From: Halichondria panicea
Taxonomy: Eukaryota > Porifera > Demospongiae > Suberitida > Halichondriidae
Length of the DNA stretch: 64,000 nucleotides
Reading direction: 5' to 3'
Assembly: GCF_963675165.1 (NCBI RefSeq)
Contig: NC_087382.1
Location: 1,488,001-1,552,000 of the forward strand
This document shows, one piece after another, positions 3,601 to 42,512 of this stretch. The notes beneath the pieces are model-generated. The model did not search any database. It had not been told where the DNA came from and worked only from the letters and a program-made list of their open reading frames with translations. How positions within the stretch are numbered: the first letter of the stretch is position 1; every line of letters begins with the position of its first letter. A program made the position numbers and the translations under genes.

Positions 3601-5457
3601 TTTGACTCTGGACTGCTCTGATGGCTCCACCCTGCACACCACGATTGTTACTGAGAGTTGTGGGTCCATTGAACTCCACTCGACTGCTTAGAGCATACAC
3701 AGGGTTTACATTATTGCTAACATTGTTAACTCCCGTAAATGACAAGTTAGAATGCACTACGTAAATGATATTTCACCCTCTAAATTGTCAAATATGCTTG
3801 TATTAGTAATTATCAAAGTTGAGATAACAACCGCAATCACTCCATCTTGCTGAGTAGCTCTGTTGTTTGTGACCACAGAGTCGGAAATGATCACAGTGCC
3901 ATCAGCAACAAAAAACACTCCACCAAAGTCAGCACTGTTATTTTTAAACATGATTTTGGAGACGGATATAGTTCCAGTATATACCAAAATCGTTCCACCA
4001 AGACTAGTTTCTCCATTATCAACTACAGCTTCATTATCTGTTATATTACAGCTCAAGATAGATGCATCACCCGCGAAAAGTCCAATCGCTCCACCTGAGG
4101 TAGCCTTGTTGTTTGTTAGCTTGCTATCAGATATCAGTAACTCTCCAGTAAAAACCGAAATCGCTCCATCTGATCTACCAGCACTGTTGTACGCTAGCTC
4201 ACTGTCGGAGATTGAGACACTCCCTCCCTGGATATTAATTGCTCCACCGTCAAGAATAGCACTATTGTTTAGTAGGGCACAGTTGGAAATGAACAAACTA
4301 CTTTCGGAGGTGGAAATTGCTCCAGCACTTTCAGCAATATTATTTGTAAAGTTGCATAAACTGATAGTCACACTTGCAGAGTCCACTTCCACTGCTCCAC
4401 CAAATCCAAATATAGCAGTGTTGGAATTAAACCTTGAATTGTTAATAACAGTTTGATTTGATATAATATTATGAATTGCTCCACCACCATCATGAATAGC
4501 ACTATTGCTCAGTAGTGTACAGTTGGAAATGAACAAACCACTTCCAAAGGTGAAAATTGCTCCACCTGCTTTTTCAGCACTGTTGTACGCTAGCTCACTG
4601 TCGGAGATTGAGACACTCCCTCCCCGGCTATAAATTGCTCCACCGTCAAGAATAGCACTATTGTTTAGTAGCGCACAGTTGGAAATAAACAAACTACTTC
4701 CAAAGGTGATAATTGCTCCACCAAAATTTAATTGAGCAATATTATTTGTAAACTTGCACCAACTGATAGTCACACTTGCAGAGGCCACCTCCACTGCTCC
4801 ACCATATGCAGCAGTATTGGAATCGAATCTTGAATCATTAATAACAGTTTGATTTGATTCAATGTTCGCTGCACCACCACTGTTACTGAAGAAATCGCTC
4901 TTTTCAATGTACACATTATCAGCTTCAACAATCAATGCTCTGTCAGTGCTAGTGTTGTTCACAAAGAGAACTTGTTCAATCGTTACAGTTACCGTACGAG
5001 TGATCTCGAGTGTACAAGCTTCCAACTTTAGCAATTTCAAGCCTACCAAATAGCAGTTAGTGATATCAAAAAGTATTTGAGAAATTATGTACATGTAGCC
5101 TGAACTACTTTCATCACCTGCTCCAGTGAAATGCAAACCTTCAATACTCAATGCACTGATATTAGATAACAGCACTCTACCAGTTTTGATAGTGGCATTT
5201 TGGCCAGCAATAATCACCTCTCTGAAATTACGAATGTAAAGCATTTCACTTAATAAATGATCTCCAGGTAGAAAGCTCAAGGTGAGATTGTCTCCACCAG
5301 ACAACAGGGCTGTTTGAACAAGCTGCTCGAGAGTGAAATAAGTTCCATTTTTGTAGTCATGACACGAGTCAGCTGAATCCACTGGCACAATGTGATAGTG
5401 CTCACTCCTGGTAACAGTAGCTAGGGTCAGTAGCAGCACCAACCAGCTGGTGTGCAT
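665..5457 (-). CDS. Beta-helix (Pmp-repeat) ectodomain fused to a polytopic membrane domain; three frameshifts
   Basis: A single uninterrupted coding tract of about 1,600 residues, read from 5457 down to 665. It opens with a signal peptide (MHTSWLVLLLTLATVTRS). It continues with a long right-handed beta-helix region made of repeats of the GGAI...SNC/SNS...NNSA type, as in chlamydial polymorphic membrane proteins. Next comes a cysteine-rich neck (KCDC, CGEC, CELC), about eight hydrophobic segments, and a charged, proline-rich cytosolic tail ending in VIDVVKE. The many N-x-S/T sites fit an extracellular, glycosylated ectodomain. Three one-base frame changes interrupt it: near 3772 (an A missing in GAAA, so the frame passes to NIIYVVHSNL), near 3190 (a T missing, or AT gained, in TATATTTT), and near 2125 (an extra G in AGTGGTGG). 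Comparison with the relative at 57.7 kb fixes each of these. They could be sequence errors or early decay. The role is unknown; surface receptor or adhesion is inference. Confidence 0.75.
4181..4858 (-). repeat. Internal tandem duplication inside the beta-helix region
   Basis: Two blocks, about 4181-4462 and 4577-4858, are nearly identical at a spacing of 396 bases (132 codons). Both encode the same run of beta-helix coils, with the signatures LFISNCALLNNSAILDGG, SVSISDSELAYNSA and ASVTIS. A period divisible by three keeps the frame. The high identity points to a recent in-gene duplication that lengthened the ectodomain. Confidence 0.8.
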
Positions 5458-23877: not shown

Positions 23878-24320
23878 ATGTTGAATAATTTGATTATCAT
23901 CAATTTGAATAATAGGCTGATGAAGTTGGATAATAGGCTGATCAAGTGCGAATAAATAATTTGAACAATATAGGTGAAAAATATAGGTGAAAATATAGGT
24001 GAAAAAATTTTGAATATTTGGCACAGGCCTACCCACATGCATGTGTATGTAGTAATACAGTCATGTAGATGCATATTCTATGGTTGATATAGTCTAAGAG
24101 AGAATTCCAGTGCATATGGGAGAATCTACCACCGTGAGAAGATCAGAGATGCATGAAGTAAAAAGGGATTGTACCCTCTCAAAAGAGTTGCTAGGCAATG
24201 TAGATCTATAATCTTTCCTTTATATTAATAAGCTAATTAATGGCCTGAGGCCACCTCTGAGTCCAAGCTCACTCCCTGCAGGCAATATAGCATGGCTATA
24301 TTCAACTATATAGCACTGCA
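23878..24320. repeat. Direct duplicate 1 of a ~250-base block (second copy 26740-26975)
   Basis: The words TGTTGAATAATTTGATTA, ATCAATTTGAATAATAGGC, TGAATATTTGGCACAGGCC and GATATAGTCTAAGAGAGAAT occur in the same order in both copies. The later part is the 3'-flank repeat of the array unit (GAATCTACC...). Confidence 0.75.
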
Positions 24321-27384: not shown

Positions 27385-27620
27385 AGACCCACATTATACT
27401 CCATGGTTGAAAGAAACTCCAGTGTGTTGGGGAATCTACTATGGTGGGAAGATCAAAGATAAGTGTGCATGGCAACAACAAATAATGGTATATACTATGT
27501 GGTACACCTGAGATAGTATACGTACCTGAGATAGAAAAGATCATGATATTGGCAAAGATAAGTTCCCTCTCAAGCTCGCCTGACAGCATATATACACAGT
27601 AATTATAGATGGCTATTCAT
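27385..27620. repeat. 3'-flank repeat of the array unit (copy B)
   Basis: TCCATGGTTGAAAGAAACTC, GGGGAATCTACTATGG, GTGTGCATGGCAACAACA and CTCAAGCTCGCCTGACAGCA in order, as downstream of copies A, E and F. Confidence 0.65.
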
Positions 27621-28251
27621 ATAATTATTATAGCAGCACCAAAATAACATGCAGTATAATTATAGCTATTATAATTTATGAGGTTCAATTCACTGAAGAA
27701 AATAAAAATGTTCATTAATGTGACAGTACAAACAAATAAGGTTCACTAATTATTAATGATGAAATGATCAGCTATACAGAGGAGGCTGGAACCACTTGTC
27801 CTTAGCTAATTAAGGTCACTAATTGCAAACTTCTCTCTTGCAGACTACTTTAAGCCTAGATTTTAGTGTCTGTAAGTTTAAAAGTCAAATTGTATTTTTG
27901 CCAATTTTGCTCATGCAAAAAGTTAGAGATACTAGTCTCAAAGCTATAGCTGTACGACAACCTCGAGAACAAGCCGCACGATATCAAGGCTAGTACAAGA
28001 GTAAAAGTTTTGATTGTATCTCTTTTGAGCAAAATTAGCGAAATATGTGCCCCCCCCCCTGCAAAATAAGGTTTTAAACTTACAGACACAAACAAAACTA
28101 GGCTTAAAGCAGTGTGCAAGAAAAGTTGGAGAAATTCAATTATAAGTGACTTTAATTAAGGTCAAATGGTTCCAGCCTCCTCTGGATCAGCTATAACACT
28201 TACAATAACGTACAGTACATACATGCATGTTCTATTTACAGGTCACTGTTA
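27621..28251. other. 3' flank of copy B; contains an inverted repeat
   Basis: About 27777-27888 and 28060-28190 are partly inverted copies (GAGGAGGCTGGAACCA... and ...TGGTTCCAGCCTCCTC; CTTTAAGCCTAGTTTT-like arms with CTGTAAGTTTAAAA). This is a foldback element of about 410 bases. No coding region seen. Confidence 0.5.
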
Positions 28252-30008: not shown

Positions 30009-32242
30009 CTAGTCTATTTTACTACATCGATGTCCAATAATAGCATGTTCATGGCAGATCCTGATGGTACAGTTGGGGCAAGCCATTGCTGTGTGCTTTT
30101 GCTCCTTGCTGGGTATCCTGTCTTGCACACATATTTGACATCTACCTCTGCTCAGTCCCACTCTGCTGACACTCACACGGATGTCCTGCGAGGGAGGATT
30201 ACCAAGGTTGAGACCAGACACACCTCTAGCACATGCACGTGACATACTCAACAGACTACCAATCACTTCCAAATGAAACCCTTTCAAACACTTAGGCTTT
30301 TCACCTACCCTCACACAATTGTGCTTGTACAGAATATACGCATTATTAACAGTAATATCCACAAAATCCTGAACCAATACCGGCGACACTTTCTATCATA
30401 TCCATACGTCTTCCTCATACGTCCTGTATTGTCAACCCCTCCCATGTACAAGTTATAGGCAGGGAGACAAGGGGGAACACTCTGTGCGCATAGAGTATGC
30501 AATCTGAACACAGCGCCTGGCATTGTCTCAGGAAATACATTAGTAGCAAAACAAATCACCTTACGGTCATTGAACACAAAGTAACAGATGTCATCCACAG
30601 TCTTAGATACATATTCACCTTTATGAGGTACCACACCCTTTAGATCTTAGGGGAAACCAGCGGCTGACTTTTTCATTGTACCCACTACGAATACGTCATG
30701 CTTACGTAAGTATACAATCAACGGACCAGATGTATAAAATTTGTCCATGTAGACCACATGATTCATTGTATGAAAAGGCTCAACTAATTGCTTCACTACC
30801 CTCATCAGAAGTCCCTTCTCTGACACCTTTTTCCCGGAAGAACCGGTGAGCCTACCACTATACACATCAAACGTACATAGATACCCACAACAAGAACAAG
30901 AGCAGCACCACACCTTGAAACCTAGCTTTCTGGGCATATGAATTTTACCCCCTTTTCTACCCTTGTACTTAATCATCATTTCATCTACGGAAAGCTCTTG
31001 GCTAGGATGATATTTGACCAAGTAGTTTGTACTGAGCGTTTCCAAAACTGTATGTATCTTGCTTGTTATCTTTCTGCTATCAACTATGCACGTATTGTCG
31101 TCACAATGGAGGCGCCGCGCAAGGATTTAAATCTATTGAAAGGCATGGTGTCCTTAACAGCCTGTACTCCTAAGAGCCGATTTGTGGACCAGTAGTCAGT
31201 ATACTCGGGGAGCCTATGAATACCCATCTCCAGTATTATGCCAATAAATACCCAGATCTCGTCTCTATGTGTACCCTTCCAACTTTTAGCACCACACTGT
31301 GTGGCATACAGGTTTGTTTGCTCGGCTATGTGCTCACACAAACTATCTGGCCACAATAGTTTCACAAAGTCTATGAACGCAGTGTTAGAGGGGTCAACTT
31401 TATCTGCAGCACCAACTACACCCTTGAACTCGGGATATTTCCCAGTGGACTTAGCTTTTCGTAATCCATCCTGCCTTGCCAGCTTCCTTCGTTTCGGAGT
31501 TGGAGCCATACCATCCACCAGCTTGTCTCCTCCTCCTCCTCCTCTGTCTTCTGTGTCCTCGTCGTCACTCGCGTCTACATGACAGAAAGAAATAGCAACT
31601 GTCAAGCCACCCACCCACACACACACACACGTACACACACACAGAAACGCGAAACGGGAGGAGCCTAATACACCACAGGGACTATGAATATCATTGTAGG
31701 AGCGCTGTGAACACATAATAGTGCTATGAATATCATTAAGTGCTGGGGGGGGAGTGGGGTACAGTACAGTACAGTACAGCACAGCAGAGGAAAAAAGGCA
31801 CAGGAAAAAAGGCTCGTCCACATCGAAGGCCGCTCCCACAGTGTGGGAAGAGTCTAATAAACCACAATGACTACGAATATAATTATAGGAGAGCTTAGGA
31901 GCACTATTAATATCATTAATGACTGGGGGTACAGTACGAAGCAGAGGACAAGGCTGCAATAAACCACACGAACCTTGAATATGGTACAGTGGAGGAGCCA
32001 CCAGTGTTATGAATTAAGGACTACGAATACCATTAGGCAAGTAAGCAAAAAAAGCGACCGTAGAGAACGACAGTGTGCTAGGTACACACTTCAGTAGGCA
32101 GCATGTGGTAATGACTTTTCTACAAATGGTACAATGACCCAAACCAGTTACCTGAAATATCTGTCTCAAAACAGTCATCACTGCAGTCATTCTGGTCCTC
32201 CTTGTCCTCCTCAAGCTCGCTGACATAGTTTCCCAGACCCAT
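30009..32242 (-). pseudogene. piggyBac-type transposase, two frameshifts and one stop
   Basis: Two exons: 32242-32152 (MGLGNYVSELEEDKED... acidic) and from 31574 down to 30009, with a GT-AG intron of 577 bases. Family landmarks: the acidic N-terminus (SDDEDTED), EIWVFIGIILEMGIHRLPEY, ELSVDEMMIKYKGR (first catalytic Asp), NHVVYMDKFYTSGPL (second), YFVFNDRKVICFATN, GVDNTGRM and a C-terminal Cys/His zinc module (CQICVQD...CPNCTIRICHEH...HRC). This is the DDE_Tnp_1_7 layout at about the usual length. Breaks: a base missing near 31110 (after FKSL), an in-frame TAA at 30649-30647, and a T missing near 30373 (after RRYWFRI). I did not find convincing TTAA-flanked termini. As it stands it cannot make a full transposase. 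Confidence 0.85.
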
Positions 32243-33132: not shown

Positions 33133-33433
33133 TACAGACCCACATTATACTCCATGGTTGAAAGAAACTCCAGTGTATTGAATTATATACCATGTGGGAA
33201 GATGAAAGACAAGTGTATATACATGTATAATTTATGCATGCATGTCCTATGTTGTATATCTGATCGAGGTAGACTCAACTCTTAAAGATAAGTTGCTATA
33301 ATAATAGTATAATTATAGGCAATCATGTAGAGATCGAATCTCTCCTTTTATGTTATGGATACTCACAATGGCCATGCATGCATGCATGCTACCTCTTCTG
33401 GCAGCACAAAATATATTATAGCATGGCTATATT
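33133..33433. repeat. 3'-flank repeat, split by the Pack-MULE-like element
   Basis: TCCATGGTTGAAAGAAACTC, ...ACTCTTAAAGATAAG, GGATACTCACAATGGCCATG and AGCATGGCTATATT in order. The 1.58-kb element begins directly after GGCTATATT, and the flank resumes at 35013 with TCAACTATAATTATAG. Confidence 0.7.
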
Positions 33434-33842
33434 TAGCCTCGACTCCAGCCCCTTGAATAGTGGGCCTGGTATTTACTGTTGGCACGTGGGTGGACAATTA
33501 ATTTATTATTTACCGTATTTTATCTCATTGAACGTTAAAACAGTATTTTATCTTATTGTGATAAAGAACAGAAAAAAGAAAAAGGAGAGGCTACCTCTCT
33601 TAGCTGTATATACTGTAGACAGAGACAGCTAAGTAAAATATCAGCTCTGTAGATTTATTCATTAACTTGAGGCTCGGATCGGATATATACACACTCAGGC
33701 GACAAGTTAATCTCATAAGAAATTAGTTAAACCTGTGGGTAAAAAATAAATGTGGATAAGTACAGTGGCTGTGACGTAACATAATGTCAGGACTACTTAT
33801 TGATTTACACAATAGATTTACCATTGAAAGCACTATCCATTA

Positions 33843-33935
33843 ATACACACTCAAGCAACAAGTCCGGATACACACTCAAGCAACAAGTCCCTCGGATCGG
33901 ATACACACAAGTCCCTCGGATTGTAAACACATTCA
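33843..33935. repeat. Tandem ~27-base repeat ACACTCAAGCAACAAGTCC
   Basis: Three adjacent, partly shortened copies (CGGATACACACTCAAGCAAC, ACAAGTCCCTCGGAT). A related single unit lies near 33673-33710. Minisatellite inside the Pack-MULE-like element. Confidence 0.75.
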
Positions 33936-33996
33936 GGCCACACAGTTCTCGGATCAGATACCACGTACTTACTCTGTGACCAATTTTCGGCAAATG

Positions 33997-34346
33997 TCAC
34001 AACAATACTTCCTTCCAGAGAGAATGGTACTGAACGTCGAACAGACACACCAACACTTTGAAGATGGCTTCACTCAGAGAAACAAGAGGAGAAATCACTA
34101 TCACAATACTTCTTTCAGAGAGAGGTGCACTGGTCCTGTCAAGCTTCACATCAATCCAAGAAAGGGAGTGTCTGGAAAGCAGATGGACTTGCTCTGGGAC
34201 TTGCCATAGCCGATCGGTACGGTACCCACATAAACACCAGCGTACAGACACTTCAACGCCTCCAGCTGCTTGTCTTTCAAGACTAGACCTGGTTTTCCAA
34301 CACAGGATAACGCGTACGCGAGAGCAGAAGAGAAGGTAGCAGCCAT
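33997..34346 (-). pseudogene. RecQ-like helicase N-terminal fragment
   Basis: Minus strand: SSALAYALSCVGKPGLVLKD, then KQLEALKCLYAGV, then a P-loop-like GYGKS, then (after a frame change near 34160) DVKLDRTSAPLSERSIVIVI followed by SPLVSL. This is the Q-motif, Walker A and motif Ia of a RecQ-family superfamily 2 helicase. The DEAH box and everything after it is absent. The expected ...TGYGKS...YQ...PF spacing is damaged. A captured fragment, not a gene. Confidence 0.6.
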
Positions 34347-34607
34347 TACACAACTTGGACTAGATTTCTTTTTTCAATGACATCATTATAAATGAAACGG
34401 ATATCAATGTTTTACAAACTAATGCGGAATAAGAATACTGATAAATATACTGCAATTTAGGAAATTTGTAACGGGCACTTTCTACAAGTCACACATGCAC
34501 TGTTATAACTAGTACTGTACTACTAACATGCACTAGTCTTATGTATAGTAAAGTATACACACATGCATGTTCTATTTATATACAAGTCACTGTTATTATT
34601 TAGTACT

Positions 34608-34676
34608 GTTGGTTGTGTTGATGATAGCTTCCTCGGGCACTTCATAGAAGGTCCATGCCACCATCTGACCAGTCTA
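34608..34676 (-). pseudogene. Copy C: isolated exon 5 of the four-TM array gene
   Basis: TGQMVAWTFYEVPEEAIINT-coding exon preceded by a CTTTCTCTTAG acceptor, nearly identical to exon 5 of copy D including its NTTNS ending. The flanking 34.44-34.70 kb is a copy of 35.18-35.34 kb. It lies inside the Pack-MULE-like element without any other exon. Confidence 0.8.
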
Positions 34677-35157
34677 AGAGAAAGAGAGATAATTGTTTTT
34701 GTGTGCTGTGCAGGTAATTGTATAGTAAAAAATAAAAAAATAAAAAAAGATTCTGGGTAATTCTGGCGCATGCGTAAACAGTGTATAACAGGTTCCATGC
34801 TCATTCACAGGTCACCAACTCTATCACCTGTGCTTGATGGGCATACCTAAACTTACTATATGTTTGTTCTTCATATCTTTACCTTACTTAGATTTCGATT
34901 TATATCTGTCTACCCGTTTGTACTTACCTTAAAACTACTCGTTTCGCCATAAAGGCAACAACAAAAAAATGTATACCAGGCCGTCTTTCTCAGCGGCTTG
35001 GAATCGAGGCTAGGCTATATTCAACTATAATTATAGTGAGTTTCACCAATTTGAAAGATAAATCATTATGACATGCAGCACTATAACAAATAATTATATA
35101 TATAATTATAGGCTCAGTCACTAAAGTGATACAGTAATCATTGTTGAGTTTCAAACA

Positions 35158-36364
35158 TCATGCAGCTAATACTATAATTAGTAACGGGCACTTTCTACAA
35201 GTCACGCATGCACTGTTATAACTAGTACTGTTGGTTGTGTTGATGATAGCTTCCTCGGGCACTTCATAGAAGGTCCATGCCACCATCTGACCAGTCTAAG
35301 AGAAAGAGAGATAATTGTTTTTGTGTGCTGTGCAAGTAATTGTATAGTTTTAAGCTGTAATTTCGCATAATTTGCAATCGAAAGAACCGCAAAGAGTGAG
35401 CATGCGCATGCCATTTCCCATGCTTTGCATGCAATTGGCAACCAGGAATAAGTGTCATTCGTAATCGATTAATCTTGCATTCGAACCTGATATATGGTAT
35501 ACATGCACTCACCCAGGACACAGTGGCAATTAGTGCTCCAGCAAAAAATAAGTTGACAGGATGAACCAGGAGGCCTCTGGCTGAGTATACAATAATGAGG
35601 GTTCCAGCATCAAAGAAGATCATCCCCAAACAGAGAAGAAACAAAATACTGACAACTGCATGTTGTCTGATGAGACAACTTGTTAAGAAAATGTGAATGT
35701 ACACATATATATATAGTACTGATTAGACGTTAATATCATGACTTTCTGTTTTGACACAAAATCACATGTATCGTTTCACTGTTTGTATAATTATAGGCAG
35801 AAAATACAACAGTAATATATACAACCCTTTTAAATTGAAGATACAATCGTCCTGAGGATCCTAGCGGCAGATCGTGCACTGATAACAGCATGCATGAACA
35901 GTTCCCAGCACGATGATTTGAATACCCAGCAGAGAGATGAACCAATAGGGGAACAAAATAAGCCCCACTGGTGCTGTACCGGTGCCCTGCAAACAGGGGG
36001 GGGGCTAGAGTGAACACATGCAGACTATATGGTTTATATAAGTCCCCACAATAATACTCTTGCATTCTATTAATGATTGAATATGCAATTGTATATACTC
36101 ACAACAGTAAGCCATCCGAATCCAATCACAATGAGCAGCCATGGTAGAATAGTGAAGCCAGCCAAGCCCAATCCAATCTGCAGATATAATTGCAATACTA
36201 TAGAATGCATGCAACAACACCTTTCTTCCTGGTCCTAGTTCCAACATTTTTAGAATTATAGCAGTTGAAGGCAGCAGGAAATCTCCAGTGTAGCACAAAA
36301 ATTCTGAGACACTCTCCCAAATGATATGTTTTATAGAAGCTAGCATCATCTCCTCTGATGTCAT
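35158..36364 (-). pseudogene. Copy D of the four-TM gene, frameshifts in exons 3 and 4
   Basis: Exons: 36364-36221 (144 bases, MTSEEMMLASIKHIIWESVS...ELGPGRK), 36177-36103 (75), 35986-35845 (142), 35666-35513 (154) and 35295-35158. Exons 1 and 2 read cleanly. Exons 3 and 4 each have four extra bases compared with B and E, GCAT/ATGC in both cases (CATGCATGCTG in exon 3, ACATGCAGTTG in exon 4). The two do not compensate. Exon 5 has a changed ending (NTTNSTSY...). Not functional as written. Confidence 0.75.
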
Positions 36365-41860: not shown

Positions 41861-42141
41861 TCAAAAGAAGCTCCCAAATACGTGGTTCAATTTACCAAAG
41901 AAAACAAATTAATGTTCATTGTGACAGTATAATTATAGTAGTATACGAAAAAATTAATGGTTCTCACTAAAAATGCATGATGGAGTAACCTACTAACATG
42001 CACTAGTCTTATGTATAGTAAAGTATACACGCATGCATGTTCTATTTATATACAAGTCACTGTTATTATCTAGTACTGTTGGTTGTTGATGATAGCTTCT
42101 TCGGGCACTTCATAGAAGGTCCATGCCACCATCTGACCAGT

Positions 42142-42512
<371 letters not shown>

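Follow-up and report, generated by a model that had tools for sequence, protein, structure and literature searches.

The question raised by the element at 33434–35012 of the window (the whole stretch of DNA analyzed, 64,000 nucleotides on contig C6) is whether it collected the gene pieces that it encloses or came by them in some other way. The original prediction was of a Pack-MULE-like element holding pieces of two unrelated genes, namely the start of a RecQ-like helicase and an exon of the gene that forms the surrounding array. The element does not look like a Mutator-type collector of this kind, but like a common defective transposon. The explanation that we regard as very probable as a whole is that of an AcademH-like deletion derivative, in which an exon was copied from a template at a break in a palindrome and to which a LINE-like tail was added separately.

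The borders are well defined. The inverted ends lie directly inside a perfect 9-bp duplication, GGCTATATT, with identical copies at 33425–33433 and 35013–35021 that represent the target-site duplication, as had been predicted. The left terminal inverted repeat (TIR; 33434–33472, plus strand) starts with TAGCCTCGACTCCAGCCCC, the terminal TAGCCTCG occupying 33434–33441, and the right TIR (34973–35012, plus strand) terminates in CGAGGCTA (35005–35012). Beyond these terminal motifs the TIRs of the window copy are imperfect, agreeing at 78% over 23 nt and at 73% over an overlapping stretch of 26 nt. The left TIR comes with a subterminal hairpin, and the subterminal hairpins as a whole are modest in the window copy (DNA fold z −1.4 on the left and −2.3 on the right); folding of the ends of three longer relatives described below gave a clear hairpin in L032 (z −3.6) and L039 (z −4.3) and no clear hairpin in L029 (z −1.0).

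To place the element among its copies, we searched the genome (131 Mb) with its full sequence, and the best 40 of 662 candidates scored comprised the window and 39 other places, 92–98% identical. The matches of these copies mostly span bases 10–1038, after which most copies match the right end in short blocks. The 27-base left end, allowing up to three mismatches, occurs 214 times in the genome (reversed control, 0). Both ends were sought in 35 loci (L001–L028 and L042–L048), several of which share one copy, or a duplicated copy with an identical 9-mer, and were counted once; this gave 22 distinct insertion sites with both ends, 20 of them with a perfect 9-bp duplication, the two imperfect ones matching at 7/9 (L022) and 3/9 (L042). 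Among the 35 loci, no end pair was found in L019, L046, and L048. The usual length in the family is ∼1.1 kb, and in the window copy the family core consists of a left part (33434–34459, plus strand), which is the portion 92–98% identical in the 39 other scored copies, and a resumption starting with AGATTCTGGGTAATTCTGGCGCATGCG (34748–34781, plus strand). A consensus was derived from 15 copies, each of which is 0.2–2.1% away from it in mismatches, the window copy 0.9% (10/1102 aligned bases, gaps uncounted); the MAFFT alignment puts the window copy's right end wrongly, and identities to the window taken from it were not used. Because the copies differ so little from their consensus, the family is, by this measure, young, and both abundance and recent activity of AcademH-like elements are indicated for the genome containing the window. 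The middle of the core (33512–34020) was also used as a query for a host source; the best 40 of 420 candidates were strong matches and included many known family copies, and these ∼500 bp gave no alignment with the five long relatives compared.

It had been proposed to look for an empty site at other units of the array, and one was recovered. Joining the flanks with a single GGCTATATT yields the 25-mer TATAGCATGGCTATATTCAACTATA, whose only exact occurrence in the genome is at 24286–24310 (plus strand) of the window, in the same array as the element; a second place, on C11, differs by one mismatch, and the reversed control gave no occurrence. Since the exact 25-mer across the joined flanks occurs once genome-wide, we take 24286–24310 to be the empty site, its homology being confined to 25 bp. 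The joined flanks also align across the junction, in a gapped and AT-rich alignment, to 27580–27698 (score 49 vs. at most 39 in 500 shuffles), which is the weaker support of the two.

The segment predicted to be the start of a helicase gene lies at about 34041–34346 (minus strand), with its Met at 34346, and is degenerate and frameshifted. Pfam gave no match for this segment, searched as two pieces; its identification as the start of a RecQ-like helicase comes from its homology to the starts of RecQ-type helicases at other places in the genome, and to this extent the prediction was right. The helicase start as a genome query gave matches at the best 150 of 281 candidates. We fetched 20 helicase-start loci, mostly more diverged ones or ones with long open frames, and paired end motifs by eye in 14 of them (L029–L042), omitting motifs without an evident partner. 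Eight helicase-start elements among these (L029, L031, L032, L033, L034, L038, L039, and L041) are, by eye, bounded at either side by TAGCCTCGA-type ends and flanked by a perfect 9-bp duplication; the L042 copy, already counted among the 22 family sites, shows no duplication. The elements in L029 (5,643 bp) and L039 (5,821 bp) have predicted DEAD (PF00270) and Helicase_C (PF00271) domains in separate open frames, with an additional RecQ_Zn_bind domain (PF16124) in L029, the helicase piece of which matched RecQ1, BLM, RecQ, WRN, and further RecQ helicases in the PDB. On the strand opposite to the helicase, both encode a predicted DUF6589 protein (PF20231; E 2.7e-31 in L029), and the DUF6589 frame of L029 has a zf-AD-like start that is under the Pfam cut-off. 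DEAD and DUF6589 matches are found in the L032 element (6,353 bp) also. At 5086–5811 of L032, inside this long AcademH-like element, domain matches to DUF3504 and QRICH1 were found in an open frame that may perhaps belong to a nested Crypton-like element.

The helicase piece of the ∼1.1-kb family is placed as it would be in a shortened version of these longer elements. Read from its right end, positions 1–530 of the consensus are colinear with 1–522 of the L032 element (70.8% over 565 columns), and the opposite consensus end matches the other end of L032 at 79.5% over 78 columns. Helicase homology begins ∼200 bp inside the right end, and its offset from the TIR is similar in L029, L031, L038, and L039. 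Diverged helicase starts were located within 6 kb of a DUF6589 match in 18 of 35 cases, where 0.2 would be expected; these 35 were hand-picked, with near-identical short copies and fragments omitted, and compared with 92 DUF6589 matches. Three of the 92 DUF6589 matches are in open frames of 1,617–1,732 aa (C3:3629098, C9:1650827, and C14:4797543). As judged from the colinearity with the right end of L032, the equal offset from the TIR, and the proximity to DUF6589, the helicase piece belongs to the transposon itself, having been inherited from a longer element through internal deletion, and is not a captured, unrelated gene as had been proposed. It had also been argued that the exon and the helicase piece, if they extended as one colinear unit beyond the borders elsewhere in the genome, would make the ends coincidental; the helicase piece of the longer relatives comes close to this, except that the colinear unit is itself bounded by TAGCCTCG ends. 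Longer helicase-encoding relatives were found, but none of them is an intact autonomous partner whose ends are as similar as those within the family, the best candidate being L032, which is 71–79% alike and contains the probable nested element.

The exon, on the other hand, is what it was predicted to be, a piece of the array gene with its intron border. The core of the window copy halts at AATTTA (34459) and restarts at AGATTCTGGG (34748), with 288 bp intervening (insert 1; 34460–34747, minus strand), which hold a terminal exon of the neighboring array gene together with its intron flank. Insert 1 is made up of 3 filler bases, a copied segment of 264 bp (34463–34726), and a 21-base A-rich filler (34727–34747). 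The coding part of the exon (34596–34673, minus strand; ...GQMVAWTFYEVPEEAIINTTNSTK*) retains its splice-acceptor side, from 34674 on, and ends in ...EEAIINTTNSTK*, whereas the donor now runs to a longer end. The copied segment equals 35176–35348 (minus strand), where the adjacent array unit has its terminal exon with the flanking intron sequence, at 170/173 compared bases. Only insert 1 and this unit, in comparison with three other units, share a 2-bp exon insertion and a matching intron edge, which identify the unit, on these shared characters, as the donor of a genuine insert specific to this copy. Insert 1 has 91 bp that are missing from 35176–35348, between two 9-bp direct repeats, TAGTACTGT; most of these 91 bp are retained in another array unit (41990–42157, minus strand; 96% identical to insert 1), and the exon copy predates their loss from the donor. 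In the donor exon (35176–35300), the 2-bp insertion and the 91-bp deletion alter and lengthen the predicted C-terminus relative to the other translated units.

The donor lies only ∼160 bp outside the element, in the same orientation as insert 1. Where insert 1 sits, ∼9 bp of core sequence are replaced, so that a perfect 21-bp palindrome, ATTACCCAGATTCTGGGTAAT (consensus 1019–1039), has lost most of its left arm. A genome-wide search with insert 1 returned itself and nine others (all nine candidates scored), every one on contig C6, of which eight lie within the array or close to it and the ninth (83%) is ∼1.2 Mb off; insert 1 was found in no other element copy in this search. Given a source so close by and its absence from other element copies, there is no sign that the exon was carried anywhere, and the simplest reading of the sequences is that it was copied at the present site, into an element already inserted there, and has stayed in place since.

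Toward its right end, the window copy contains a further insert (insert 2; ∼190 bp, 34782–34969, plus strand), the 5′-truncated tail of a repeated LINE-like element, bordered by an 11-bp near-duplication, TGTATAACAGG (34782–34792) and TGTATACCAGG (34970–34980), that agrees at 10/11 positions. There are at least 40 other matches to insert 2, and 28 of those listed end at query position 188–189; we call it LINE-like on account of these shared end positions and of A-rich tails rather than of a reverse-transcriptase match. This same LINE-like tail is found at or near one subterminal place (∼consensus 1056–1066) in the window, L008, L051, and L052, and this end of the element may possibly be an insertion hotspot for it. 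More generally, 6 of the 22 sites exceed 1.2 kb (window, L008, L022, L024, L045, and L047), and four further loci, L049–L052, were fetched for displaced blocks or a LINE tail. The ten large non-exon inserts in these copies resemble nested or repeated elements: those of the window, L008, L051, and L052 are the LINE-like tail just described, that of L045 starts with poly-T and has at least 39 other matches listed, those of L024 and L047 are inverted-repeat elements with many copies, that of L049 has perfect inverted repeats of 207 bp, and that of L050 is a nested TAGCC-ended element with, by eye, its own 9-bp duplication, ATTGTGATA. The insert of L022 has similar stretches, among the fetched sequences, in the window and L029. 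A search for other elements with gene pieces had been proposed; the family copies examined, a minority of the 214, contain no host-gene piece except the exon in the window, and since the ten large inserts seem to be of the nested or repeated kind, gene capture is no evident habit of this family.

Several groups of DNA transposons come into question for such an element. Mutator-like elements duplicate 8–11 bp of their target, Kolobok elements have the target site TTAA, and AcademH, a lineage of the Academ superfamily, was reportedly first described by Kojima in 2020. The 9-bp duplications are in the Mutator range, and inverted ends around a genuine host exon are also what one would see in the Pack-MULEs of plants, in which an element with TIRs encloses a fragment of a host gene. 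Nevertheless, a Mutator-like element holding captured fragments of two host genes is a most improbable account of this locus: the helicase piece aligns colinearly with the ends of a longer element that encodes a helicase, and is thus part of the transposon, no Mutator transposase was detected among 16 pieces translated from three long relatives (7 from L029, 6 from L039, and 3 from L032), the exon copy adjoins its donor and is seen in no other element, and the remaining large inserts examined resemble nested or repeated elements. What survives of the Pack-MULE-like reading is that a transposon with TIRs and a 9-bp duplication contains a true fragment of the array gene. By contrast, the characters given for AcademH in the part of PMC10045372 that treats it, a helicase gene, TIRs, and duplications of 9 or 10 bp that are tied to its helicase, are shared by the elements described here: 9-bp duplications in 20 of 22 family sites and, by eye, in the eight helicase-bearing relatives, TIRs, and a helicase in L029 and L039, of which the window copy retains only the degenerate start. 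Passages in PMC10799480, PMC12210899, and PMC8290104 mention or cite AcademH and supply no further test. A RecQ helicase in a DNA transposon is common to these elements and to KolobokH, in which RecQ is present according to a passage in PMC9587614. The duplications here are 9-mers of varied sequence, unlike the TTAA of that group.

With RecQ helicase domains and DUF6589 in its relatives, 9-bp duplications, and no Mutator transposase in the pieces translated, the element thus fits AcademH and not Mutator, as a probable non-autonomous, internally deleted member of an AcademH-like group. It differs from the AcademH of PMC10045372 in that a deletion has reduced it to a core of 1.1 kb, to which two inserts were added. 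The DUF6589 protein is probably the transposase; one DUF6589 piece gave no match in a PDB search, and our literature search returned no naming of DUF6589. As DUF6589 is an Academ transposase by inference, the elements could be a RecQ-carrying superfamily near AcademH and yet distinct from it, but this seems unlikely when the 9-bp duplications and the helicase are stated AcademH characters in the treatment cited above (PMC10045372).

In the AcademH-like history that we favor, the ends, the ∼200-bp right leader, and the helicase start would descend from a longer element with a RecQ-like helicase and a DUF6589 protein on the opposite strand. Longer relatives presumably mobilize the short element in trans through a cut-and-paste mechanism in which the cuts are staggered by 9 bp. 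The element would have inserted beside the array unit, after which a break at the internal 21-bp palindrome was, as the junctions suggest, mended with 264 bp copied from the gene next to it, a short filler being left at each junction; the donor would afterwards have lost 91 bp between the 9-bp direct repeats, and the LINE-like tail would have inserted near the right end independently. Repair of a break within the already inserted element, with the adjacent gene as template, is on this evidence the most likely origin of the exon. A nearby copied stretch, junction filler, and a small deletion are likewise typical of templated insertions at repaired double-strand breaks, from which the present case differs in lying inside a transposon and including a terminal exon with its splice acceptor.

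Other routes can be set against this one. Synthesis during the transposon's own gap repair after excision could have switched to the adjacent gene and back, which would be the first step of Pack-type capture performed in place; a donor ∼160 bp away in the same orientation, fillers at the junctions, and intact outer ends and duplication agree with it. We hold this to be possible but doubtful, given that the break is at the internal palindrome and not at an element end, with no tie to excision, and that host-gene filler is found in no other family copy examined. No source was identified for the A-rich filler at the right junction, which leaves room for a retrotransposition-type route, whereby an antisense transcript from the array gene would have been retro-inserted by a LINE as insert 1, with the A-rich stretch, including AATAAA, as its tail. 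The LINE-like tail inserted a few dozen bases off in four copies is in keeping with such a process; on the other hand, this route requires an RNA that is both antisense and unspliced, ∼9 bp were lost and a target duplication is absent, and the donor stretch 35176–35348 is without AATAAA, all of which makes this route improbable. Whether the templated copy is at the same time the first step of transposon gene capture, before any move, we can answer only with a tentative "perhaps": it provides the gene with another terminal exon, in its state before the deletion and 622 bp farther downstream, to which splicing could occur, and, if this is true, an AcademH-type element took a terminal exon and splice acceptor from the gene beside its landing site.

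The locus corrects a tempting misreading, in that a helicase fragment in a repeated element may be an accessory gene of the transposon and not booty. In the window copy, the acquisition of a gene fragment can be dated to after the insertion, its donor can be named, which should rarely be possible, and the acquisition is linked to a palindrome inside the element. A transposase of the piggyBac type (DDE_Tnp_1_7, PF13843; best piece E 5.7e-30) is also present within the array, in three open frames at 30311–31126 and 31084–32013 of the window (minus strand).
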